Shown: positions 4,112 to 27,325 of the stretch, piece after piece
Position numbering within the stretch: position 1 is the first letter of the stretch
Layout: each line of letters begins with the position of its first letter
From: Alphaproteobacteria bacterium
GTDB lineage: Bacteria; Pseudomonadota; Alphaproteobacteria; Rhizobiales; Xanthobacteraceae
Reading direction: 5' to 3'
DNA length: 64,000 bases
Assembly (NCBI GenBank): GCA_016869215.1
Contig: VGEP01000025.1
Span: forward strand, 1-64,000
Position numbers and translations under genes: made by a program
The notes under the pieces: generated by a model
Told to the model about the DNA's origin: nothing
Seen by the model: only the letters and a program-made list of their open reading frames with translations
Database searches by the model: none

Positions 4112-5230
4112 ATGACCGCCTACATCATCCGCCGCCTGCTGTTCATGATCCCGACCCTGCTCGGCATCATGCTGGTGTCCTTCGTGGTCGTGCAGTTTGC
4201 GCCGGGCGGACCGGTCGAGCGCGTCATCGCGCAGCTCTCCGGTGCCGACACGGGCGCGGCGTCGCGCATCCCCGGCGCCGGGCAGGGCGGCGATTTCGGC
4301 TCGCGCGGCCAGGTGCAGGGCGGCTCGCAGGTCGACGCCGTGACGTCGAAGTATCGCGGTGCGCAGGGCCTCGATCCGGAATTCATCAAGCGGCTCGAAG
4401 TGCAGTTCGGCTTCGACAAGCCGGCGCACGAGCGATTCCTGCTGATGCTGTGGAATTACACGACCTTCGATTTCGGCAGGAGCTATTTCCGCGATGTGAC
4501 GGTGATCCAGCTCGTCAAGGAGAAGCTGCCGGTCTCGATGTCGCTCGGCATCTGGATGACGCTGCTGACCTACTTGATCTCGATCCCGCTCGGTATCCGC
4601 AAGGCGGTCAACGACGGTTCGCGCTTCGACGTCTGGACCTCCGGCGTCATCATTATCGGCTACGCCGTACCTGGATTTCTGTTTGCCATCCTGCTGATCA
4701 TCCTGTTCGCCGGCGGTTCCTATTTCGACTGGTTTCCGCTGCGCGGGCTGACATCGGAGAATTGGGCCGCGCTGCCGTGGTACGGCAAGATCGCCGACTA
4801 TTTCTGGCACCTCGCGTTGCCGCTGACCGCCATGGTGCTCGGCGCCTTCGCGACCATGACGCTGCTGACCAAGAACTCGTTCCTCGACGAGATCAGGAAA
4901 CAGTATGTGCTCACCGCGCGGGCCAAGGGCTGCACGGCGCGCCAGACGCTCTACGGCCACGTGTTCCGCAACGCCATGCTGATCGTGATCGCGGGCTTCC
5001 CCGGCGCGTTCGTGGGCGCGTTCTTCTCCGGCGCGCTTCTGATCGAGACCATTTTCTCGCTCGACGGGCTCGGCCTCCTGGGCTTCGAAAGCGTTCTGAA
5101 TCGCGATTACCCGGTGGTGTTCGCCACGCTCTACATCTTTGCGCTGATCGGGCTGGTCGTGAATCTGATCTCCGACCTCACCTATACGTGGATCGATCCC
5201 CGTATCGATTTTGAGACACGGGAGGTCTGA
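4112..5230 (+). CDS. Peptide ABC transporter permease, YejB-like
   Basis: A 372-residue inner-membrane permease of the DppB/OppB type and one half of the transport channel. The first helix covers about residues 9-31. A Gly-rich periplasmic loop around residues 45-75 follows, typical of YejB rather than DppB. The C-terminal half holds the permease EAA-type loop (Ala-Arg-Ala-Lys-Gly-Cys...), which docks on the ATPase. It lies 103 bases after the second binding protein and one base before the second permease, so it is part of the operon. Length fits the family (about 360). Confidence 0.9.
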
Positions 5231-5231
5231 G

Positions 5232-6407
5232 GTGGACGCGCGCACCGATTTCAAGGATTCCACGGCCATTGCGCCGGCGGGTTCCACAGCAAAGCCGAAG
5301 CGCGGACGATTTGCACTGTCGCCGATCAATCAGCGCCGCTGGGTAAACTTCAAGCGCAACCGCCGCGGCTATTGGTCGTTCTGGATCTTTCTGGTGCTGT
5401 TCGTCGTGTCGCTGTTTGCCGAAGTGATCGCCAACGACAAGCCGTTCATGATCCGGGTCGAAGGCAAGACCTACTTTCCCGCCTTCGTGACCTATCCGGA
5501 GACCGCCTTCGGCGGCGAGTTCGAGACCGCGGCCGACTACCGCGATCCGTTTCTCCAGAAGCTGATCGCCGAGAAGGGCGGCTCGATCGCCTGGCCGCCG
5601 ATCCGCTATTCCTACGGCACGCACAATCTCGACCTGCCGACGCCTGCGCCGTCGCCGCCGACCTGGCGGCTGACCGAGGAGCAGTGCAAGGCGGTGGTCG
5701 ATAAGAAAGGTCTCAAGGGCTGCCGCGACCTCGAATACAACTGGCTCGGCACCGACGACCAGGGCCGCGACGTGGTGGCCCGGCTGATCTACGGCTTCCG
5801 CATCTCGGTGCTGTTCGGGCTGACGCTGACCATCATCTCCTCGATCGTCGGCGTCGCGGCCGGCGCCGTGCAGGGCTATTTCGGCGGCTGGACCGATCTG
5901 CTGTTTCAGCGCTTCATCGAGATCTGGACCTCGGTGCCGACGCTCTATCTGCTGTTGATCATCTCGTCGGTGCTGGTGCCGGGATTCTTCGTCCTGCTCG
6001 GTATATTGCTGCTGTTCTCCTGGGTGGCGCTCGTGGGTCTGGTGCGCGCCGAGTTCCTGCGCGGCCGCAATTTCGAATACATCCAGGCGGCGCGTGCGCT
6101 CGGCGTGTCGAACGCCACCATCATGTTCCGGCACCTCTTGCCGAACGCCATGGTCGCGACCATGACGTTTCTGCCGTTCATCCTGTCGTCGTCGGTCACG
6201 ACGCTGACCGCGCTCGACTTTCTCGGCTTCGGCCTGCCGCCCGGTTCGCCGTCGCTCGGCGAGCTGCTGTCGCAGGGCAAGGCCAACATCCAGGCGCCGT
6301 GGCTCGGGCTTGCGGGCTTCTTCTCGGTTGCGATCATGCTGTCGCTGCTGATCTTCATCGGCGAAGCGGTGCGCGACGCCTTCGACCCGCGCAAGACGTT
6401 CCGGTGA
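5232..6407 (+). CDS. Peptide ABC transporter permease, YejE-like
   Basis: A 391-residue inner-membrane permease of the DppC/OppC class that pairs with the upstream YejB-like subunit. GTG at 5232 is preferred because a GGAGGT ribosome site sits just upstream and overlaps the yejB stop. An earlier in-frame start would run into yejB. It has an N-terminal cytoplasmic segment, a first helix at about residues 45-65, a long periplasmic insertion and five more helices. The EAA loop reads Ala-Ala-Arg-Ala-Leu-Gly-Val near residue 285. It is about 50 residues longer than E. coli YejE, mostly N-terminally and in the periplasmic loop. Confidence 0.9.
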   Translation: MDARTDFKDSTAIAPAGSTAKPKRGRFALSPINQRRWVNFKRNRRGYWSFWIFLVLFVVSLFAEVIANDKPFMIRVEGKTYFPAFVTYPETAFGGEFETAADYRDPFLQKLIAEKGGSIAWPPIRYSYGTHNLDLPTPAPSPPTWRLTEEQCKAVVDKKGLKGCRDLEYNWLGTDDQGRDVVARLIYGFRISVLFGLTLTIISSIVGVAAGAVQGYFGGWTDLLFQRFIEIWTSVPTLYLLLIISSVLVPGFFVLLGILLLFSWVALVGLVRAEFLRGRNFEYIQAARALGVSNATIMFRHLLPNAMVATMTFLPFILSSSVTTLTALDFLGFGLPPGSPSLGELLSQGKANIQAPWLGLAGFFSVAIMLSLLIFIGEAVRDAFDPRKTFR

Positions 6408-15943: not shown

Positions 15944-16747
15944 ATGCAACGTCCATCCACGCGCCTTATGGCCTCTGTGGCAATTGTGGCCGCACTGGCC
16001 CTGGGCGGTTGCTCGACCAGAAACCAGTCGCCGCTGGACGCCACCGGTTCGATCAACAGCGCCGCGGGTCCTCGCACCGAGGCCGAATGGCGGCAGGAAA
16101 TGGAGGCCTACGCTCCGCGCTATCGCGCCAATCCGCGCGATCCGCAGGTGGCCATGCGCTACGCCCAGGCGCTGCGCGCCATCGGGCAACGCGCCCAGGC
16201 CGCCGCGGTGCTGGAGCAGGCGGCCATCGCCAACCCCAACAACAGCGCCGTGCTCGGCGCCTATGGGCGCGCGCTCGCAGACAACGGCAATCACAAGCAG
16301 GCGCTCGACGTTCTCAACCGCGCGCACACGCCCGATCAGCCGGACTGGCGCATCCTGTCGGTGCAGGGCGCGGTGCTCGATCAGATGGGCCGCCACCCGG
16401 AGGCGCAGCGGCACTACGCCAGCGCACTGCGCATCGTGCCCGACGAGCCTTCGGTTCTGTCCAATCTCGGCTTGTCCTACGCGCTCTCGAAAAATCTACC
16501 GAAGGCCGAATCCACCTTGCGGCAGGCCGCGGCTCGGCCCGGCGCCGACGAGAAGGTGCGGCAGAACCTGGCGCTGGTGATCGGGCTGCAAGGCCGCTTC
16601 CAGGAAGCCGAGACCATTGCACGCGGCGACCTGTCGCCGGATGAGGCGGCCGCCAACGTCGCGTACCTGCGGCAGATGCTGTCGCAGCAGAAGGACTGGT
16701 CCAAACGCAACCGGGGTTCGCCGCTGTCGCCTTCGACCGGATCGTAA
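15944..16747 (+). CDS. tadD: TadD-like tetratricopeptide lipoprotein
   Basis: A 267-residue lipoprotein: N-terminal signal with lipobox Leu-Gly-Gly-Cys (Cys23), then an Ala-rich chain of tetratricopeptide-type helices from about residue 50 to 245. TadD proteins are needed for Flp pilus assembly, probably as outer-membrane-anchored pilotins for the secretin. It stands opposite the rest of the tad genes, converging with tadC, whose stop is 23 bases away, which fits the assignment. A CtrA-like box lies upstream. Confidence 0.83.
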   Translation: MQRPSTRLMASVAIVAALALGGCSTRNQSPLDATGSINSAAGPRTEAEWRQEMEAYAPRYRANPRDPQVAMRYAQALRAIGQRAQAAAVLEQAAIANPNNSAVLGAYGRALADNGNHKQALDVLNRAHTPDQPDWRILSVQGAVLDQMGRHPEAQRHYASALRIVPDEPSVLSNLGLSYALSKNLPKAESTLRQAAARPGADEKVRQNLALVIGLQGRFQEAETIARGDLSPDEAAANVAYLRQMLSQQKDWSKRNRGSPLSPSTGS

Positions 16748-16769: not shown

Positions 16770-17786
16770 CTAGCGCGTCCGCGTGACCGGGGTGTCGGTC
16801 GAAGTGTCCTGCGTCGCCATCACGCGGATCGCCGCAGGCCCCAGAATGACGACGAACAGCACCGGCAGGAAGAACAGGATCATCGGCACGGTGAGCTTGG
16901 GCGGCAGCGCCGCCGCCTTCTTTTCGGCTTCCGACATCCGCATATCGCGGTTTTCCTGGGCCATGACGCGCAGCGTCTGGGCGAGCGGCGTGCCGTAGCG
17001 CTCCGCCTGCTGGAGGGCCATGCAGACCGACCTTACGCCGTCGATGTCGGTCCGTTTCGCCAGGTTGTCGTAGGCTTGCCGGCGGTCCTGCAGGTAGGAC
17101 AGTTCCGCCGTGGTCAGCGTCAACTCCTCGGCCAGCGGGATCGACTGCGAACCGATCTCCTGCGAAACCTTCTTGAACGCGGCCTCGATCGACATGCCGG
17201 ATTCGACGCAGATCAGCAGCAGGTCGAGCGCGTCGGGGAACGCGCGCCGGATCGACAGCTGGCGCTTGGCGATCCGGTTCTTCAGGAACATGTACGGGAC
17301 GTGCATGCCGAGATAGGCCGCGCCGAGGCAGAGCCCGATCTTGACCGTGGCGGTCTGATCCATTTCGACCACAACGAACAGGTAGAACAGCGCAACAAGG
17401 AACAGCGCGATCGGCACGATCAAGCGGAAGAACAGGAAGGCGACATAGGGGGCCTGGCCGCGGTAGCCGGCCTGCACCAGCTTCACGCGCGCTTCCTCCT
17501 GGGCAAGCCACTTGGTCAGATTGAAGCGCTCGACCACCTGCTGCATATAGAGCTTGGGCGATTGCCGGAGCGAGATTTTCTCCTTTTCGCCGCGCGCCAG
17601 CCGTTCGCGCTCGCGCTGCCTGATCTTCTCGCGCTCCAGCGCGACCGACTTCATGCGCCTGCCGAGCGTATCCGGCGACAAGAGCGGCATGGCTAGCGTC
17701 AGCACGGTCGCGATCGCCGCGATGCCCGCGAGCATCATCGTCAGGAACTTCGTGTCGTGCATCCGGTCGATCAGAAAGTCGAGCAT
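16770..17786 (-). CDS. tadC: TadC-like type II secretion F protein
   Basis: A 338-residue polytopic inner-membrane platform protein of the Flp pilus machine. It has an N-terminal helix at about residues 12-32, a basic coiled stretch (many Glu/Arg/Lys around 45-75), a central pair of helices, the GspF/T2SSF domain and a C-terminal helix. The start at 17786 gives the usual TadC N-terminus Met-Leu-Asp-Phe-Leu; extending upstream would cross into tadB. It follows tadB by 8 bases. With the TadA/CpaF ATPase it drives pilin extraction and assembly. Confidence 0.9.
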   Translation of the reverse strand: MLDFLIDRMHDTKFLTMMLAGIAAIATVLTLAMPLLSPDTLGRRMKSVALEREKIRQRERERLARGEKEKISLRQSPKLYMQQVVERFNLTKWLAQEEARVKLVQAGYRGQAPYVAFLFFRLIVPIALFLVALFYLFVVVEMDQTATVKIGLCLGAAYLGMHVPYMFLKNRIAKRQLSIRRAFPDALDLLLICVESGMSIEAAFKKVSQEIGSQSIPLAEELTLTTAELSYLQDRRQAYDNLAKRTDIDGVRSVCMALQQAERYGTPLAQTLRVMAQENRDMRMSEAEKKAAALPPKLTVPMILFFLPVLFVVILGPAAIRVMATQDTSTDTPVTRTR

Positions 17787-17794
17787 GATGCGTC

Positions 17795-18772
17795 TCAGAA
17801 GTCGAAGTTGATCATCTGCTTCATCACGAAGACGCCGATCGACATCCACATGGCGCAGGCTGCGATCATGATCCGGCCGAGGTCCGTGGTCCAAAGCAGC
17901 GAGATGTAGTCGGGGCTCGTGAGGTAGACCAGCAGGCCCACGGCGATGGGCAGCGAGCCGATGATCGTGGCCGAGGCTTTTGCCTCCATCGACATGGCTT
18001 GAATCTTGGCCTTCATCTTCTTGCGCTCGCGGAGCACGCGCGACAGGTTGCCGAGCGCTTCGGACAGGTTGCCGCCGGCTTTTTGCTGGATTGCCACAAC
18101 GATGCCGAAGAAGTTGGCCTCGGCGAGCGGCATGCGATCGAACAGCTTGGCGCAGGCGTCTCCCAGCGGGACGCCGACGGTTTGGTTCTCGACGATGGCG
18201 CGGAACTCACTCTTGACCGGCTCTTGCGCTTCGATGGAGATGACCTTGAGGCTGTCGAGTAGCGGCAGGCCCGCCTTGATGCCGCGGACGATGATATCGA
18301 CCGCGTCGGGGAAGGTGTCGAGGAAGCGCTTTTCGCGGCGCTTCTTCAGGTACGACAGGAGCCACAGCGGGGCGCCGCAACCGGCTGCAAAGCCGACGGC
18401 CAGCGCGGCAAGCAGTCCGAGTTCGGACAGGAAGACCAGCAGGAACGCCAGCAGGCCGAGCCCCGCGGCGATGGCGATGAACTTCTGCTTCGACCAGGTC
18501 AGCCCGGCTTAAGCGATCCTGATCTGCAGGGGCGGATTTTTTGAGCTCTTCGATTTGACATCGAGCTCTTTGAGCGTTTCCTCGACCTGCTCGCGGCGGG
18601 ACTTCTGCGGCGCCCGTCCCGTGCTCCGCACTGCCGGGGCGTTTCGCGTCACGCTCGCGCGGCGCTTTTCGGCCTGCCGCTCGCCGGACAGGAGCGGGTA
18701 GAGAAAGACCCACGCGACGCCGCCGATCGCGACCGCGGTCATGAAGAACAAGGCGAGCGTCTGCATCTTCAT
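17795..18772 (-). pseudogene. tadB: tadB, inner-membrane pilus assembly protein, broken by an in-frame TAA
   Basis: Read straight through, this frame gives a 325-codon TadB: N-terminal helix, basic linker (residues 28-75), two helices near 95-135, the T2SSF domain and C-terminal helices. A single TAA at 18509-18511 replaces codon 88, within the conserved 'IRLAQAGL' context where homologues have Gln (CAA). The frame before and after is otherwise intact and continuous, with no shift, so this is one base change (C to T). No good restart codon follows closely. Either tadB is inactive here, or the stop is read through, or the base call is wrong. TadB is normally essential for Flp pili. Confidence 0.85.
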
Positions 18773-18785
18773 GGACTGCGCTCCG

Positions 18786-20294
18786 TCACCGGGCCGGCTC
18801 CGCCACGGTCTCGGCAGAGTCGAGGGCGGCCGCCAGACGCTTCTCCTCGCCGTAATAGCGCGCGCGGTCCCAGAATTTCGGCCGGCCGATACCGGTCGAG
18901 CGATGCGAGCCGATGATGTTGCCGTTGGCGTCTTCGCCGGTCATGTCGTAGACGAACAGGTCCTGGGTGATGATCACGTCGCCTTCCATACCGACCACCT
19001 CGGTGATGTGGGTGATGCGGCGCGAGCCGTCGCGCAGGCGGGCCGCCTGCACCACGACGTCGACCGATCCCACGATCATTTCGCGGATGGTGCGGGACGG
19101 CAAAGAGTAGCCGCCCATGGTGATCATCGATTCGATACGCGCGAGCGCTTCGCGCGGGCTGTTGGCGTGCAGCGTGCCCATTGAGCCGTCGTGGCCGGTG
19201 TTCATGGCCTGCAACAGGTCGAACGCCTCCGGTCCGCGAACTTCGCCGACGATGATGCGCTCCGGCCGCATGCGCAGGCAGTTCTTGACCAGGTCGCGCA
19301 TGGTGACCTGACCCTCGCCTTCGAGGTTCGGCGGGCGTGTTTCCAGGCGCACCACGTGCGGCTGCTGGAGCTGCAATTCGGCGGCGTCCTCGCAGGTGAT
19401 GACGCGCTCGTCGTCGTCGATGAATTGCGTAAGGCAGTTGAGCAGCGTGGTCTTGCCTGAGCCGGTGCCGCCAGACACGATCGTATTGATGCGGCAGCGG
19501 CCGACGACCTTGAGCACGTCGGCGCCTTCGGGCGTGATGGTGCCGAAACGGACAAGCTGGTCGAGGGTCAGCTTGTCCTTTTTGAATTTGCGGATGGTAA
19601 GGGCGGGACCGTCGAGCGCCAGCGGCGGCGCGATCACGTTGACGCGCGAACCGTCCGGCAGGCGGGCGTCGCAGATCGGCGAGGATTCGTCGACGCGGCG
19701 GCCGACCTGGCTGACGATGCGCTGGCAGATGTTCAGGACCTGCTGGTTGTCGCGGAACCGGATGCCGGTCTTCTGAATCTTGCCTTGAACTTCGATGTAG
19801 ACGGTTCCGGCGCTGTTCACCATGATGTCGGCGATGTCGTCGCGCGCGAGCAGCGGCTCCAGCGGGCCGTAGCCAAGGACGTCGTTGCAGATGTCGTCGA
19901 GCAGCTCTTCCTGCTCGGAAATCGACATCACGATGTTTTTGATCGCGATGATCTCGTTGACGATATCGCGGATTTCCTCGCGCGCCGCCTCGGCGTCGAG
20001 GCGCGCAAGCTGCGCCAGGTCGATCGCCTCGATCAGGGCGCCGAACACCGTGCCCTTGGTTTCGTAGTAGCTCTCGGAACGGCGGGTGTCGGTCGCAAGG
20101 ACGGGGGGCGGAGAGCTGATGCGCGCCGGGGCGGCCGGCGCGGAAATCAGCGGAGCGCCGAGCCCGGACGAGGGCATCGGCGCGCGGCCGGGTTCGGACT
20201 GCGCCGGCGTCTTCGGCGGCGCGGCCGGTTTCGGCGCCGCCGCGGCCGGGGCCGAAGCGGGTCGAACGTCCGTTGTGCTGCGTCTGCCGAACAC
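18786..20294 (-). CDS. cpaF: TadA/CpaF-type pilus assembly ATPase
   Basis: A 502-residue secretion ATPase of the VirB11/TadA group that powers Flp pilus extension (and probably retraction). GTG at 20294 is preceded by a GGAG site at good spacing, and gives an Ala/Pro-rich N-terminus of about 75 residues typical of CpaF. Walker A is Gly-Gly-Thr-Gly-Ser-Gly-Lys-Thr-Thr. The Asp box and His box (Thr-Gly-His-Asp-Gly-Ser...Thr-Leu-His-Ala-Asn) follow. The frame stays open far upstream, but that part is antisense-like junk over cpaE. It precedes tadB by 13 bases. Confidence 0.95.
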
Positions 20295-20326: not shown

Positions 20327-21604
20327 CTACTGGCGGCTCAACAGTTTGCCGAGAAGCGGCGTCAACAGGCCGCCCTTCGACTTCTTGACCTCCGAACGTC
20401 CGGTCAGGGTCTGCGCCAGTTGCTGGAATGTCTCGGTGGTGCGGTGACTCGGTGAAATCTCCGCCACCATCTGGCCGTTGTTGGCGGCGGATCCAAAGAG
20501 CTGGGGCTCGAACGGAATGATCGCCGCCGGCTGGTCCTCCAGCGCCTTCGCAAAGTCCGCCGGCTTGATCTCCGGACGCTTGGGTACGCCGACCTGGTTG
20601 AGGCAATAGAACGGGCGGCGGTCGTTGACGCGCGCGGCCCGCAGGAAGTCGAACAGGTTCTTGGCGTTGCGCAGGTTGGCAAGGTCGGGCGCGGCCACGA
20701 TCAGGATGTCGTCGGCGCTGACCAGCGTCCGCTGTGTCCAGCCGCACCACTGATGCGGTACATCGAGGACGATGCAGGGCATGGTCGAGCGCAGCGAATC
20801 GAAGATCGCGTCGAACGATTCCGCGCCGAAGTCGTAGACGCGCTCGAGCGTCGCCGGAGCGGCGAGCAGGCTCAGGTTGTCGGTGCACTTGGACAGCAGC
20901 CGGTCGACGAAGGCGGTGTCGATCCGGTCCGGCGAAAACACCGCGTCGGCGATGCCCTGCGGCGGGTCCTGATTGTAGTCGAGACCGGCTGTGCCGAATG
21001 CAAGATCGAGATCGGTGACGACCGAATCGAGCGCAAGGTCGCGCGCCACCGACCAAGCGATGTTGTGCGCGATCGTCGAGGCGCCGACGCCGCCTTTCGC
21101 GCCGACCACGGCGATGATGCGTCCGACCGGCTTGGCGTCCGGCGCGGAGAACAGGCCGCAGATCGAGCGCACCACGTCGAGCGTCGCGACCGGCGAGATC
21201 AGGTAGTCGCTGACGCCGCGGCGGATCAGCTCGCGGTACAGCAGCACGTCGTTGTGCCGGCCCACCACGATGACGCGCGTTCCGGCGTCGCAGACTTCGG
21301 CGAGCGAGTCGAGGCCCTTGAGGATGGAATCGCCGCGGCTTTCGGACTCCAGCATGATGACGTTCGGCGTCGGCGAGCTGCGATAGGCCTCGGCGGCGGC
21401 CGTCACGCCGCCCATCTGCACCTTCAGGTGCGCCTTGCCGAGGCGGCGGTCCTCGCCGGCCGACTGGATCGCGGCGGCGGTTTCCACGGTCTCGCAGAAT
21501 GCCTGGACCGAGACGCGGGGCGCGGGAGCGATATGCTCCTCGCGCGCGACCGGTTCGGCCGGAATCTCCGCCGGTTCGGCGGTCTTCAGTGCAGTTCTGA
21601 TCAT
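20327..21604 (-). CDS. cpaE: CpaE-like pilus localisation ATPase (MinD/ParA family)
   Basis: A 425-residue protein with an N-terminal receiver-like domain (about 45-150) and a MinD/ParA-type ATPase domain. The P-loop is Gly-Ala-Lys-Gly-Gly-Val-Gly-Ala-Ser-Thr, the deviant form usual in CpaE. CpaE places the pilus machine at the pole in Caulobacter. Its ATG at 21604 overlaps the cpaD stop by 4 bases (ATGA), showing coupling, and fixes the start. Confidence 0.93.
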   Translation of the reverse strand: MIRTALKTAEPAEIPAEPVAREEHIAPAPRVSVQAFCETVETAAAIQSAGEDRRLGKAHLKVQMGGVTAAAEAYRSSPTPNVIMLESESRGDSILKGLDSLAEVCDAGTRVIVVGRHNDVLLYRELIRRGVSDYLISPVATLDVVRSICGLFSAPDAKPVGRIIAVVGAKGGVGASTIAHNIAWSVARDLALDSVVTDLDLAFGTAGLDYNQDPPQGIADAVFSPDRIDTAFVDRLLSKCTDNLSLLAAPATLERVYDFGAESFDAIFDSLRSTMPCIVLDVPHQWCGWTQRTLVSADDILIVAAPDLANLRNAKNLFDFLRAARVNDRRPFYCLNQVGVPKRPEIKPADFAKALEDQPAAIIPFEPQLFGSAANNGQMVAEISPSHRTTETFQQLAQTLTGRSEVKKSKGGLLTPLLGKLLSRQ

Positions 21605-22341
21605 TTGCCGAGATCGCTGATCGCGCCCTTCTGCGTGTCGGGGATGATCGTCGCCGGGCTTTCGCCCTTGCGCCACTTCTCGCGGGCGAACGTGCGCTTG
21701 TTGGTGTAGGCGGCGGTTTCGGCACGCGGCTGCACGAGGTCGGCCGGTTCTGCCACCATCGCGGCGAAGTTGCGCTGCGTGGAACAGCCGAAGTTGTGGT
21801 ACTGCCGGTTCTCGAAATGCCTGGCGCCGGGGCTCGGCCCGGGATCGTCCGGCCACTGGCCGCACGGACCCGCGTGAGCCGCAATCTGCGGATAGTTCAG
21901 GCGCAGCGGCGCGACCTTGCTGCCGCCCGCCTGGTAGGGGCGAATGCCGATGCCGTGATTCGGCACTCCGGACTGCACCATGATCGATAGCGCTTCCTTC
22001 AGCGTGTCATTGGCGGCGCGCTCGTTGGGCCCGCCGACGGGACGCTCGATGGTGATGCCGCCGGTTGCCTCGCGCTTCCAGCTCTGCGCGAACGCCAGAA
22101 CCTCCGCGCGCTGCACCGGCGTCAACCCGCCGCGGCCCGCGCCCACATGCACGGCCAGGGAGCGATTGCCCTCGCCGATCGAGATGGGGTGGCGCTTGCG
22201 ATAGTCGGAGTCCACGCTGCCGGTCACGTCGCCGGTGGTGTCGCAGGCGGCAAGACCGAAGGCGAGTGCCGCGAACAGGAGTCCGCGGATGCCGGCCGCC
22301 GTCATGCGGCGGCGGGCGATCGCAGGGTCGTTGGGATGCAT
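21601..22341 (-). CDS. cpaD: CpaD pilus assembly lipoprotein
   Basis: A 246-residue outer-membrane lipoprotein: signal with lipobox Leu-Ala-Ala-Cys (Cys33), followed by the CpaD domain with conserved 'NFGCSTQRNFAAM' and 'ADLVQPR' segments in the last third. It works with the CpaC secretin. The start at 22341 is the only one giving an N-terminal signal. It lies between cpaC (23 bases upstream) and cpaE (4-base overlap). Confidence 0.92.
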   Translation of the reverse strand: MHPNDPAIARRRMTAAGIRGLLFAALAFGLAACDTTGDVTGSVDSDYRKRHPISIGEGNRSLAVHVGAGRGGLTPVQRAEVLAFAQSWKREATGGITIERPVGGPNERAANDTLKEALSIMVQSGVPNHGIGIRPYQAGGSKVAPLRLNYPQIAAHAGPCGQWPDDPGPSPGARHFENRQYHNFGCSTQRNFAAMVAEPADLVQPRAETAAYTNKRTFAREKWRKGESPATIIPDTQKGAISDLGK

Positions 22342-22364
22342 CGAGCGTCTCCTGGTCGCCTGGT

Positions 22365-23816
22365 TCAATCGAGAATGAAGCCGTAGTTGCCGCGGTATTC
22401 GGGTTTGCGCGTCTCTCTGCGTCCCGGCACGCCGTAGAGCCGGTTGAAGCGGCCGAGCAGGCTGCCGGACAGGTCCGAGGCGTCGGCGAATCCGTCGTCC
22501 GGCTTCGACAAGTCCTTCTGCGCCACCGCGCGCACGATGTACGGGGTCACGAGCACCATGAGTTCGCTCTGGCGATTGATGTAGTCGCGGCTCTTGAACA
22601 GCGCGCCGAGCACCGGGAGGTTCATCAAGCCCGGCATGCCGTTGATGTGCTGCTTGGTCTGTTCGTGGATCATGCCGGCGAGCGCGAGCGCCCCGCCCGA
22701 GGGAATCTCGACGGTGGTTTCGGCGCGGCGGGTCTTGATCGACGGGATGGTCAGCGTGCGGTTCTCGTCGCCGACCGACTGCAGAATGGTCAGCGCGTTG
22801 TCGGAGGAAACCTCGGAGACTTCGGTCAGCACCTTGAGACTGATGCGGCCCTCGGACATGACGACTGGCGTGAAGTTCAGGCCGACGCCGAACTTCTTGA
22901 ACTGAATCTGCGTTTGGCAATTCCGCGTGTTGGGATCGCAGGTAAAACCCGCGGGCACCGGAAACTCGCCGCCGGCGAGAAAGTTTGCGGTCTCACCGGA
23001 GATCGCGGTGAGGTTGGGCTCGGCAAGCGTTCGAATGACGCCGGCGCGCTCCATGGCGCGCAACGACGAGCTGATCGTGCGCCACGTGGTGGTCGCGGCG
23101 TTGGAGCTGACCAGTGCCTGTCCAAGCGCCGAGAACGGATTGCCATTGTTGAAATTCAGAACGGTCTGGCCGTAGCTCAGCGTGCCGCTGAGGTCGATGC
23201 CAAGCTGCTTGATGATGTCGCGCTGGACCTCGGCGACCGTGACCCGAAGCATGACCTGGTCGCGGCCGCGCACCGCAATTCCGTTGACCACTTTGTTGCC
23301 GTCGCCGGCGAGCCGGGCCGCGAGGTCGTAGGCCTGCTGCGCTTCGGCGGGGCTAGCGACCGAGCCCGACAGCACGATGCCGTCGCCCAGCCCCTCGACG
23401 GTGATGTCGGCTTCCGGGAGCGCGCGCTTCATCGCGGCGCGGATGCCGTTCAGATCGCGGGTCACCGCGATGTCGAAGCCCATCAGCTGCCGGCCTTCGG
23501 CGTCGAAGAAAAACACGTTGGTCTGACCGACCGCGACACCGATCAGATACGCGCGGCGCGCGGTGCGCACGACTGCGTTGGCGATCTTGGGATCTGCGAC
23601 CAGGACGTCCTTGATGTCGGCCGGCAGGTCGATGACCACCGACTTGCCGATGCCGAGCGTGACGAATTGCGAGGAATGGTCGCCGTGAACCTGGACCGCG
23701 GGTCCGGCAGGCCGCCGCGCCGGTTCGGCGCCGGCCGCCGGGAGCACCGAGCCGAACAGCATCATGACGATCGGCGCCGCCAGAGCGGCGGTGCGAAGTA
23801 GCGTCGACTGCGTCAT
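22365..23816 (-). CDS. cpaC: CpaC secretin of the Flp pilus
   Basis: A 483-residue outer-membrane secretin through which the pilus leaves the cell. Sec signal peptide at residues 1-30, then the secretin N-terminal domain (about 40-110), a BON-like domain (about 115-190) and the type II/III secretin domain with the Val-Pro-Ala-Gly 'EFPVPAG' motif. ATG 23816 is preferred over 23831 because a GGGAG ribosome site lies 8 bases upstream of it. Confidence 0.94.
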   Translation of the reverse strand: MTQSTLLRTAALAAPIVMMLFGSVLPAAGAEPARRPAGPAVQVHGDHSSQFVTLGIGKSVVIDLPADIKDVLVADPKIANAVVRTARRAYLIGVAVGQTNVFFFDAEGRQLMGFDIAVTRDLNGIRAAMKRALPEADITVEGLGDGIVLSGSVASPAEAQQAYDLAARLAGDGNKVVNGIAVRGRDQVMLRVTVAEVQRDIIKQLGIDLSGTLSYGQTVLNFNNGNPFSALGQALVSSNAATTTWRTISSSLRAMERAGVIRTLAEPNLTAISGETANFLAGGEFPVPAGFTCDPNTRNCQTQIQFKKFGVGLNFTPVVMSEGRISLKVLTEVSEVSSDNALTILQSVGDENRTLTIPSIKTRRAETTVEIPSGGALALAGMIHEQTKQHINGMPGLMNLPVLGALFKSRDYINRQSELMVLVTPYIVRAVAQKDLSKPDDGFADASDLSGSLLGRFNRLYGVPGRRETRKPEYRGNYGFILD

Positions 23817-23835
23817 GAAACTGACTCCCATTTTG

Positions 23836-24618
23836 CTATCGGACGTTGCTCACGCCGAAACGAACGGTGTTGACGTCGGTCTTGCGGCCGGGCTCGTCCT
23901 CCGTCTGCGCCGTCTTGCCGGCATCCAGCAGACTGCGCAGGGCGAGCGACAGTGTTCCAAGCTGACGCGACAGCGCCAGCGTTTCGGACTGGCGGGGCGA
24001 CAGTTCGAGCGTCGCGGTCTTGCCGACGACGACGCGCTGGCCGCCCTTTTCCTCGACCGTCTGGTCGATGGCGAGCACGCGTACGTTGGTCAGGATGGTT
24101 TCGCTGTTCGGGCTAGAGCTCGCGCGATTGTCGCCTTCACGCGGCCGCCGCGTGAGAATGACGTCGACGCGGTCGTTCGGCAGGATGAAGCCGCCGGCGC
24201 CGGTCTCCGGCGAGATTTCGGTCGAGATCGCGCGCATGCCGGACGGCAGGATCGCCGCCATGAAGCCTGCGGCGCCGTTGGCCCTGATCAGCTTGGCATC
24301 GCGAATGGGTTCGCCGGCCGTGAACGGTGCGCGCGTGATCGCGCCGCTGAATTCGTCGGTGGCGTTGGGGCGGTCGTTGCGGGTGATATAGGAGCCGCCG
24401 GTGGTCGCGGCCGGCCAGGCCTGCCACTGGAAATCTTGCGCGGATACGGCCGTGCCCATGCCGATGTCGCGGCTGGCGATCAGCACATCGACGGTCTTGA
24501 GCTGGGCGACCGGGGCCGGCGCGGGCGGAGGGGCATCGTCGCCGCTGCCGACGAGAAACGCAGCGCCACCGCCGGCGACGAGGGCAACTGCAAGCACAAC
24601 GATACGCGCGGCTTTCAT
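23836..24618 (-). CDS. cpaB: CpaB pilus assembly protein
   Basis: A 260-residue periplasmic protein with an N-terminal signal anchor (residues 4-26), a SAF domain (about 45-110) and the RcpC/CpaB domain with the conserved 'LPNDRVDVILTRR' segment. It is thought to link the secretin to the inner machine. It is the first gene of the cpaBCDEF-tadBC run. A CtrA-like box lies 116 bases upstream. Confidence 0.93.
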   Translation of the reverse strand: MKAARIVVLAVALVAGGGAAFLVGSGDDAPPPAPAPVAQLKTVDVLIASRDIGMGTAVSAQDFQWQAWPAATTGGSYITRNDRPNATDEFSGAITRAPFTAGEPIRDAKLIRANGAAGFMAAILPSGMRAISTEISPETGAGGFILPNDRVDVILTRRPREGDNRASSSPNSETILTNVRVLAIDQTVEEKGGQRVVVGKTATLELSPRQSETLALSRQLGTLSLALRSLLDAGKTAQTEDEPGRKTDVNTVRFGVSNVR

Positions 24619-24853: not shown

Positions 24854-25354
24854 CTAGCCGAGCTGCATCCAGGTGGTGTTCGGATAAATCAGCAGCGCCG
24901 CGGCCGCGAGCGCGATGCCGTAAGGCACGCCGCCATCAAGCTTGTGCAGGCGTTTGACCCATTCCTTGTCGGCGAGGACCTGCGGCAGCGGCATCAGCCG
25001 GAAGCGGATCATGGCCAGCGTCAGAATGCCGCCGAAGATCGAGGCGTACAGCGCGTAAGTCAGCAGGTGATCGAAACCGAGCCACAACGCCGTCGCCGCG
25101 GCGAGCTTGGCGTCGCCGCCGCCGATCCAGCCGCGTGCGAAGAACACGAACGTGACCGCCAGCACCGCAAGCGCCGCGCCGACGTGGGACATCATGTCGG
25201 CTGGGCTCATGCCGCTTGCCACGGCCAGCGCGAAGAAGCCCGCGACCAGGATCAGTGCGACCCGGTTCGAGATCGTCATTGTGAAAAGATCGCTGGAGGC
25301 GGCGAACGCCATCATGGCCGGAAATAGAAACAGCCGGACGGTTTCGGTCAGCAT
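24854..25354 (-). CDS. cpaA: CpaA-type prepilin peptidase (A24 family)
   Basis: A 166-residue polytopic membrane aspartyl peptidase that trims Flp prepilins after the Gly before the hydrophobic helix. The two catalytic Asp are seen in Ser-Ser-Asp-Leu (near residue 21) and Gly-Gly-Gly-Asp-Ala-Lys (near 79). It lacks the N-terminal methylase domain, as usual for CpaA/TadV. Encoded between the pilin gene and cpaB. Confidence 0.92.
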   Translation of the reverse strand: MLTETVRLFLFPAMMAFAASSDLFTMTISNRVALILVAGFFALAVASGMSPADMMSHVGAALAVLAVTFVFFARGWIGGGDAKLAAATALWLGFDHLLTYALYASIFGGILTLAMIRFRLMPLPQVLADKEWVKRLHKLDGGVPYGIALAAAALLIYPNTTWMQLG

Positions 25355-25474: not shown

Positions 25475-25639
25475 TTAGTTCAGCGCGTTCTGGACCGACG
25501 TGAACGTGGTCTTCAGCTTCGAGCCGAGACCCTGCACGACGGCGATGATGGCGACGGAGATGCCGGCGGCGATGAGGCCGTATTCGATGGCGGTCGCGCC
25601 GGATTCGTCTTTCATGAAACGCGAAACGAGAGACTTCAT
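25475..25639 (-). CDS. pilA: Flp family type IVb pilin
   Basis: A 54-residue prepilin and the major subunit of the Flp pilus. The short basic leader ends at Gly14. The mature protein starts Ala-Thr-Ala-Ile-Glu-Tyr, carrying the Flp-typical Glu19-Tyr20, then a single hydrophobic helix. The start at 25639 has a GGAG site 7 bases upstream. CpaA cleaves it and the TadE-like proteins are co-assembly partners. A strong terminator follows. Confidence 0.96.
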   Translation of the reverse strand: MKSLVSRFMKDESGATAIEYGLIAAGISVAIIAVVQGLGSKLKTTFTSVQNALN

Positions 25640-26093
25640 GGGGTAGCTCCTTCGATCCACACGTGGCTGTCTGAGCAGGCCCGGGGCCGTTGTTACGTCC
25701 GGCCGATCCGGACCATGTGCGAAACCTAGCAATCGCCTGTTGCGGTCGAGTTAATTCGATCCCGGAAATCCTAAGACTTCGCGTGAATTAGCACCGTGGT
25801 TAATGAACAATTGAATTATTCACCCAAAGAGTTCGTGAAGCGAATTGAACGTATTGCGCATTGAATATTCGAAAATCCGGGCGCGTCATTTTTATACGAA
25901 TAGTATAGTCGCGGCTCGCGCCGGCGCTCCGGGTCCGGTTCGATCGCACAGAACGCCAGATGGCGCGGGCCGTCGCCCCGGCCGGCCGTTCGCTTTGCAC
26001 TTCATTCACCAATATGGAGTCAACTGAAACCGTGTGAGTGACCGGCCGCCGTGTATTGGGACCGGCCGGTTTGGTGAGCGTGCGGAGTGTTTC
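25640..26093. other. Divergent intergenic region between the pilin gene and the secretin-domain gene
   Basis: This 454-base region contains no convincing gene. An AT-rich core at about 25740-25910 holds the CtrA-like box at 25800-25814, plus further TTAA-containing half-sites near 25751 and 25789. The remainder towards 26093 is GC-rich with no feature I can name. It should hold promoters in both directions. Confidence 0.55.
25800..25814. promoter_or_regulatory. Candidate CtrA-binding box between pilin and secretin-domain genes
   Basis: TTAA (25800-25803), seven bases, TTGA (25811-25814): one mismatch from TTAA-N7-TTAA. It lies 161 bases from the pilin start and 280 from the divergent gene. 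Confidence 0.5.
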
Positions 26094-26612
26094 ATGTCGG
26101 CGTATCGGACGTATCGCGGTCTCCGGCCGCGCTGGTGTCTTGCCTTGGCGATCGTGACTTTGACGGCCACCGCGCCCGCGATCCTCAGATCGGCATTCGC
26201 CGACGGCATGCCCCAGGCGGCCAGCGTCGATCCGGTCGTCGTCCATCTCGACGAAGCCAAGATTCTGAAGTTGCCGGAGCGCACTGCGACCCTGGTGGTC
26301 GGCAACCCCCTGATTGCGGACGTCGCCGTCCAGCCGGGCGGGGTCATGGTGATCACCGGCAAGAGCTACGGGCTGACCAACCTGGTCGCGCTCGACCGCG
26401 GCGGTACGACCCTGGTGGAGCACGCGCTTCAGGTGCAGGGGCCGCGTGAACGCGTTGTGTTCGTCTATCGCGGCGTGGACCGGGAAAGCTACAGCTGCGC
26501 GCCGAATTGTTCGCGGCGGATCATGCTGGGCGACACGCCGACGTTCTTCGGCCCGACGCTTGAACAGACTGGAAACCTGAACACCGCGGCCCAGGGCGTG
26601 CAGCCGAAATAG
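26094..26612 (+). CDS. Stand-alone pilus assembly (secretin N-terminal domain) protein
   Basis: A 172-residue exported protein with a signal peptide at about 1-36 and a single domain at about 45-125 of the pilus/flagellum assembly N-terminal type. The pattern 'LDEAKILKLPERTATLVVGNP...ITGKSYGLTNLVALDRGG' matches the N-terminal domain of CpaC but no secretin channel follows. The start at 26094 has GGAG 8 bases upstream. The C-terminal tail has two Cys (Cys-Ala-Pro-Asn-Cys). It probably docks to the secretin or its partners. Divergent from the pilin gene. Confidence 0.78.
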   Translation: MSAYRTYRGLRPRWCLALAIVTLTATAPAILRSAFADGMPQAASVDPVVVHLDEAKILKLPERTATLVVGNPLIADVAVQPGGVMVITGKSYGLTNLVALDRGGTTLVEHALQVQGPRERVVFVYRGVDRESYSCAPNCSRRIMLGDTPTFFGPTLEQTGNLNTAAQGVQPK

Positions 26613-26746
26613 GGCGGCCGCCTTCGTTTGGTTAGCGCCCCGTCAACGCCCATGCGGTTTTGCGCAATCCGTGCGCAACCATTCAACAACGCCTGTTTGT
26701 TAGAAGCTCGGATCGAGACAAATCCGGAATTCCGGAGCGCAGGTGC

Positions 26747-27325
26747 ATGACCATGGCTGCGGGTCTGCCGAAGAGATTTGCAAGGGCGATGAGACGGGCT
26801 TTGCCCCGGTCGATCGCCCGGCGCTTTATGCACCGCGAGGACGGTGCGGCGGCGGTCGAGTTCGGCCTGGTGGCGGCGCCATTTCTGGCGCTGGTGTTCG
26901 CAATTATCGAGACCGCTATGGTCTTCTTCGCGGGCCAGGCCCTGGAAACCGCAGGGTCCGACAGCGCACGTCTGATCATGACCGGTCAGGCGCAGACGTC
27001 CGGGTTCGACCAGAAGAAATTCAAGGATGCCGTCTGCGGTCGGATTTACGGCCTGTTCAATTGCGCCGGCGGACTGCAGGTCGACGTCAAGAAGTTTCCG
27101 ACGTTCGCCAGCGTCAATCTCTCGAAACCGATCGACGCCAACGGCAACTTGAACACCGCCAACTTCGGCTACGAACCGGGAGGTCCCGGCGACATCGTCG
27201 TGGTGCGGCTGATGTATCAGTGGCCGGTTTATGTCTCTCTGCTCGGCCTGAACCTTTCCGACATGTCCGGCAACAAGCGTCTGCTGATGACCACGGTGGC
27301 GTTCCGCAACGAGCCATACCAATGA
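26747..27325 (+). CDS. TadE-like pseudopilin, copy 1
   Basis: A 192-residue TadE/TadG-like protein. After a basic N-terminus, the segment Glu-Asp-Gly-Ala-Ala-Ala-Val-Glu-Phe-Gly starts a hydrophobic helix, the hallmark of pseudopilins cut by the prepilin peptidase. The periplasmic part follows with two Cys. The start at 26747 has a GGAG site about 9 bases upstream; Met at 26753 is an alternative. It overlaps the next gene by 4 bases. Confidence 0.86.
   Translation: MTMAAGLPKRFARAMRRALPRSIARRFMHREDGAAAVEFGLVAAPFLALVFAIIETAMVFFAGQALETAGSDSARLIMTGQAQTSGFDQKKFKDAVCGRIYGLFNCAGGLQVDVKKFPTFASVNLSKPIDANGNLNTANFGYEPGGPGDIVVVRLMYQWPVYVSLLGLNLSDMSGNKRLLMTTVAFRNEPYQ

Follow-up and report, generated by a model that had tools for sequence, protein, structure and literature searches.

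The 64,000-nucleotide stretch of DNA that was analysed (hereafter the window) contains a Tad pilus locus with the gene order cpaF-tadB-tadC (Table 1). The tadB gene is located on the minus strand at window positions 17795-18772 and comprises 326 codons, which translate into 87 residues, an in-frame TAA, a further 237 residues, and a terminal TGA. The initial annotation had described this frame as continuous save for the TAA at 18509-18511; its coordinates were right, and the strand, which it had not named, is minus. Due to the TAA at codon 88, tadB lacks the uninterrupted frame of about 325 residues that TadB/CpaG has, and a Pfam profile search placed the T2SSF domain (PF00482) entirely 3' of this codon. 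A TadB query with X at the stop aligned over its full length to the homologue at relative locus L004 (75% identity, 325 aa, E 3e-180), and the TadB proteins of relatives matched both flanks of codon 88 in a single frame. At the sequence level, this match across the stop is far beyond chance, and it bears out the earlier reading of a normal TadB N-terminus followed by the expected continuation. Neither translation nor alignment to relatives revealed a second stop or a frameshift in tadB. The stop also falls in an 8-base palindrome (GCTTAAGC, window 18507-18514), probably by chance.

Table 1. Predicted features of the Tad pilus locus in the window, with the evidence for each.
Feature	Window position	Strand	Evidence or remark
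tadD-like gene, TPR protein	15944..16747	+	10 own-frame alignments stop-free; terminal TAA
tadC (T2SSF)	16770..17786	-	10 own-frame alignments stop-free; start from those alignments
C-terminal part of TadB, with 237 codons and a final TGA	17795..18508	-	T2SSF PF00482, E 7e-19, residues 72-194 of the part
In-frame TAA, codon 88 of tadB	18509..18511 (codon 18511-18509)	-	Plus strand reads TTA
TadB N-terminal part, 87 aa preceding the stop	18512..18772	-	No Pfam match at E 0.001
cpaF/tadA ATPase (T2SSE)	18786..20294	-	10 own-frame alignments stop-free; start from those alignments
cpaE/tadZ-like (AAA_31)	20327..21865	-	9 own-frame alignments stop-free
cpaD (PF09476)	21601..22368	-	9 own-frame alignments stop-free; stop codon from ORF list
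cpaC secretin	22365..23831	-	Open frame; secretin, pilus N-terminal, and BON domains; no own-frame alignment
cpaB/rcpC	23836..24618	-	Open frame and domains
cpaA prepilin peptidase (Peptidase_A24)	24854..25354	-	Open frame and Pfam domain
flp pilin (Flp_Fap)	25475..25732	-	Open frame and Pfam domain; terminal TAA
tadE-like pseudopilin (PF07811)	26660..27325	+	Open frame and Pfam domain

The neighbouring genes were examined by comparing the window with ORFs from 10 of 80 loci of a contig-level genome collection (L037 and L041 were skipped); matches with an identity of 45% or lower were dropped, and rows in other frames, some of which contained stops, were set aside. All 10 TadB alignments showed one stop, and the own-frame alignments of TadC, CpaF, CpaE, CpaD, and the TadD-like protein were free of stops. 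The intactness of CpaC, CpaB, CpaA, Flp, and the TadE-like protein was judged from open frames and Pfam domains only. On these two kinds of evidence, the earlier statement that the other tad/cpa genes look intact was upheld, and the predicted Tad locus looks otherwise complete. A lone protein of 192 aa with a PF13629 domain (pilus N-terminal, secretin-associated) is encoded beside the locus at window positions 26034-26612 on the plus strand, opposite to that of cpaC.

Codon 88 was compared in two partly overlapping sets of relatives. The whole-genome comparison included 61 genomes, that of the present bacterium among them, with one genome per species; 51 contained a tadB match, and among the best 29 of the 50 matching relatives, codon 88 encoded Gln in 28 and Arg in one. 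In the contig-level collection, which may omit near records, 102 loci encoded a relative, and the best 80 of them were kept; these harbored Gln (73), Arg (5), Tyr (1), or His (1), with the frame preceding codon 88 checked only as open for at least 60 codons. A stop at codon 88 was thus found in 0/29 and 0/80 loci, and the expectation that homologues carry Gln at this position agreed with the large majority of both sets. Among the titled records of the contig-level collection, the nearest relatives are mostly MAGs assigned to Rhodoplanes, Pseudorhodoplanes, Pseudolabrys, or Xanthobacteraceae, or named just by a higher group. Within the genus, tadB was detected in 10 of 11 genomes, including the present one, and the nearest relative was 79% identical at the DNA level. 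A stop common to the genus was rejected, as all nine other matching genomes contained a sense codon. The stop allele comes from one assembly, the single genome of the species in the comparison.

These comparisons bear on two explanations in which TadB would still be functional. In the first, tadB would be a functional split gene whose two halves are made separately and then assembled. The location of the whole T2SSF domain in the second part fits such an arrangement, but the 125 codons that follow the stop include no in-frame ATG, GTG, or TTG and only rarer starts such as CTG, and the first ATG, GTG, or TTG sits within the T2SSF region. The same absence of starts rules against re-initiation downstream of the stop. 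Furthermore, the gene is split at codon 88 in none of the 29 or 80 relative loci, and a functional split gene is extremely improbable. In the second, readthrough or recoding of the stop would yield some full-length TadB. Beyond the stop, the frame is conserved and runs uninterrupted to the usual terminus, which speaks for this explanation. However, the lack of a stop at codon 88 in all 29 and all 80 loci argues against a conserved recoding site, no stop-reading anticodon was present among 43 tRNA matches (an incomplete set that may miss a suppressor and, for example, contains no tRNA-Ile with a GAT anticodon), and TAA serves as the terminal stop of flp and the tadD-like gene in the same locus. 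TAA is generally the least leaky stop codon. Readthrough or recoding was therefore judged highly improbable.

An assembly, base-call, or strain-mixture error would leave tadB intact in the population, with a consensus base that is either wrong or derived from a minority strain. In favor of such an error, the lesion amounts to one base in one assembly (123 contigs, contamination value 1.91), and tadB and the compared neighbours are free of other lesions. On the other hand, the site is situated deep within a 66-kb contig and outside any homopolymer, and neither the 105 PF00005 nor the 48 PF13561 matches in this genome contained an inner stop, although a domain match does not cover the whole gene. 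For PF00005, 150 of 168 candidates were scored, and one of the 105 matches was under the cut-off. The stop-free matches argue against a generally poor consensus and are silent on one base. An error at this position is unlikely, with a chance that is still appreciable, and it is the main rival to a real and recent allele.

The age of the lesion was approached through the substitution pattern on both sides of the stop. Relative to six same-genus relatives, pN/pS was 0.297-0.358 after the stop and 0.273-0.472 before it, with values of 0.252-0.295 for tadC and 0.160-0.223 for cpaF. With all ten relatives, the corresponding ranges were 0.241-0.440 after the stop, 0.273-0.555 before it, 0.252-0.426 for tadC, and 0.160-0.311 for cpaF. 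The dS values relative to the six same-genus relatives (0.55-0.94 downstream of the stop, 0.69-1.58 upstream) indicate sequences that are too divergent for dating a recent change. A long-standing pseudogene is unsupported, since no second lesion was found and pN/pS is similar on both sides, which is a weak test with a nearest relative at 79% identity. Changes unique to the present sequence slightly outnumbered those unique to the relative in tadB after the stop in all six same-genus comparisons (7:5, 8:7, 8:6, 7:5, 8:7, and 9:8), whereas they were fewer in 6/6 comparisons for cpaE and never more numerous for cpaF. This excess runs against a complete absence of relaxation after the stop, and it faintly suggests that tadB has been changing faster here, on small counts that share one sequence. 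The stop appears to be either recent or an error, because the sequence downstream has neither a second lesion nor a clear sign of relaxed selection.

The initial annotation had left the choice between a point mutation, readthrough, and a base-call error; the point mutation is best supported by the stop-free relatives, the lack of a stop-reading anticodon among the 43 tRNA matches, and the clean domain matches. In this strain or lineage, tadB was thus probably inactivated by a recent single-nucleotide nonsense mutation. The assembly shows the stop, the loss of the domain, and a frame free of other lesions, and the compared relatives lack the stop; we infer the presence of the stop in the DNA of the cells, its recency, and the pilus phenotype. 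Translation would end at 87 residues and produce a protein without the whole T2SSF platform domain. The interrupted gene shares full-length homology, the T2SSF domain, and the place between cpaF and tadC with the TadB/CpaG platform protein of type IVc (Tad/Flp) pili, from which it differs in the in-frame TAA at codon 88 and a predicted product that lacks T2SSF. In a model outlined in a passage of PMC11300603, CpaG/TadB and CpaH/TadC engage the motor CpaF, TadB corresponding to CpaG in Caulobacter. With a truncated TadB, this Tad pilus would be expected to be absent or reduced, because TadB is one of the two inner-membrane platform proteins that are modelled to engage CpaF.

The same genome harbors a second tad-like locus outside the window (contig C8, locus L163, 3904-11583), which contains two T2SSF genes, one T2SSE gene, a 758-aa ORF with secretin domains, and a gene with weak CpaE-like domains (matches under curated cut-offs). 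The T2SSF protein of this locus that is closest to TadB shares 37% identity with it, and the locus might partly substitute for the interrupted tadB. The second locus weakens the pilus loss that had initially been proposed to an expected loss or reduction of this pilus. In the excerpted text of PMC4322843, deletion of tadB in Micrococcus luteus decreased transformation more than 100-fold and left a low level, which the authors wrote may be due to a paralogue. It is also conceivable, if very unlikely, that the stop represents an on/off allele under selection, with tadB-intact and tadB-stop variants kept under, for example, pilus-phage pressure while the second tad-like locus is retained.

Nonsense-inactivated alleles in bacterial genomes are strain-level pseudogenes. 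The present allele shares one stop, an otherwise open frame, and stop-free relatives with them, and no distinguishing feature was found. It would therefore be an ordinary nonsense allele of little significance beyond this genome. If real, it represents a natural tadB null in which the remainder of the locus is apparently intact, and it cautions that gene content alone is insufficient to call this Tad pilus functional. As far as their excerpted texts indicate, a tadB nonsense allele is not the subject of PMC12960592, PMC7885321, or PMC10300472, and a wider absence from print is not claimed.

Other candidate interruptions of tadB were noted among the compared sequences. One locus that had been flagged as an interrupted tadB (L039) was rejected, as the gene merely runs to its normal end. 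An inner TGA occurred in a weak tadB match in genome G052 (E 4.2e-4), and a Hyphomicrobiales MAG (isolate Bse_28, locus L102) contained an in-frame TAA at a different tadB codon, near positions 5001-5711.
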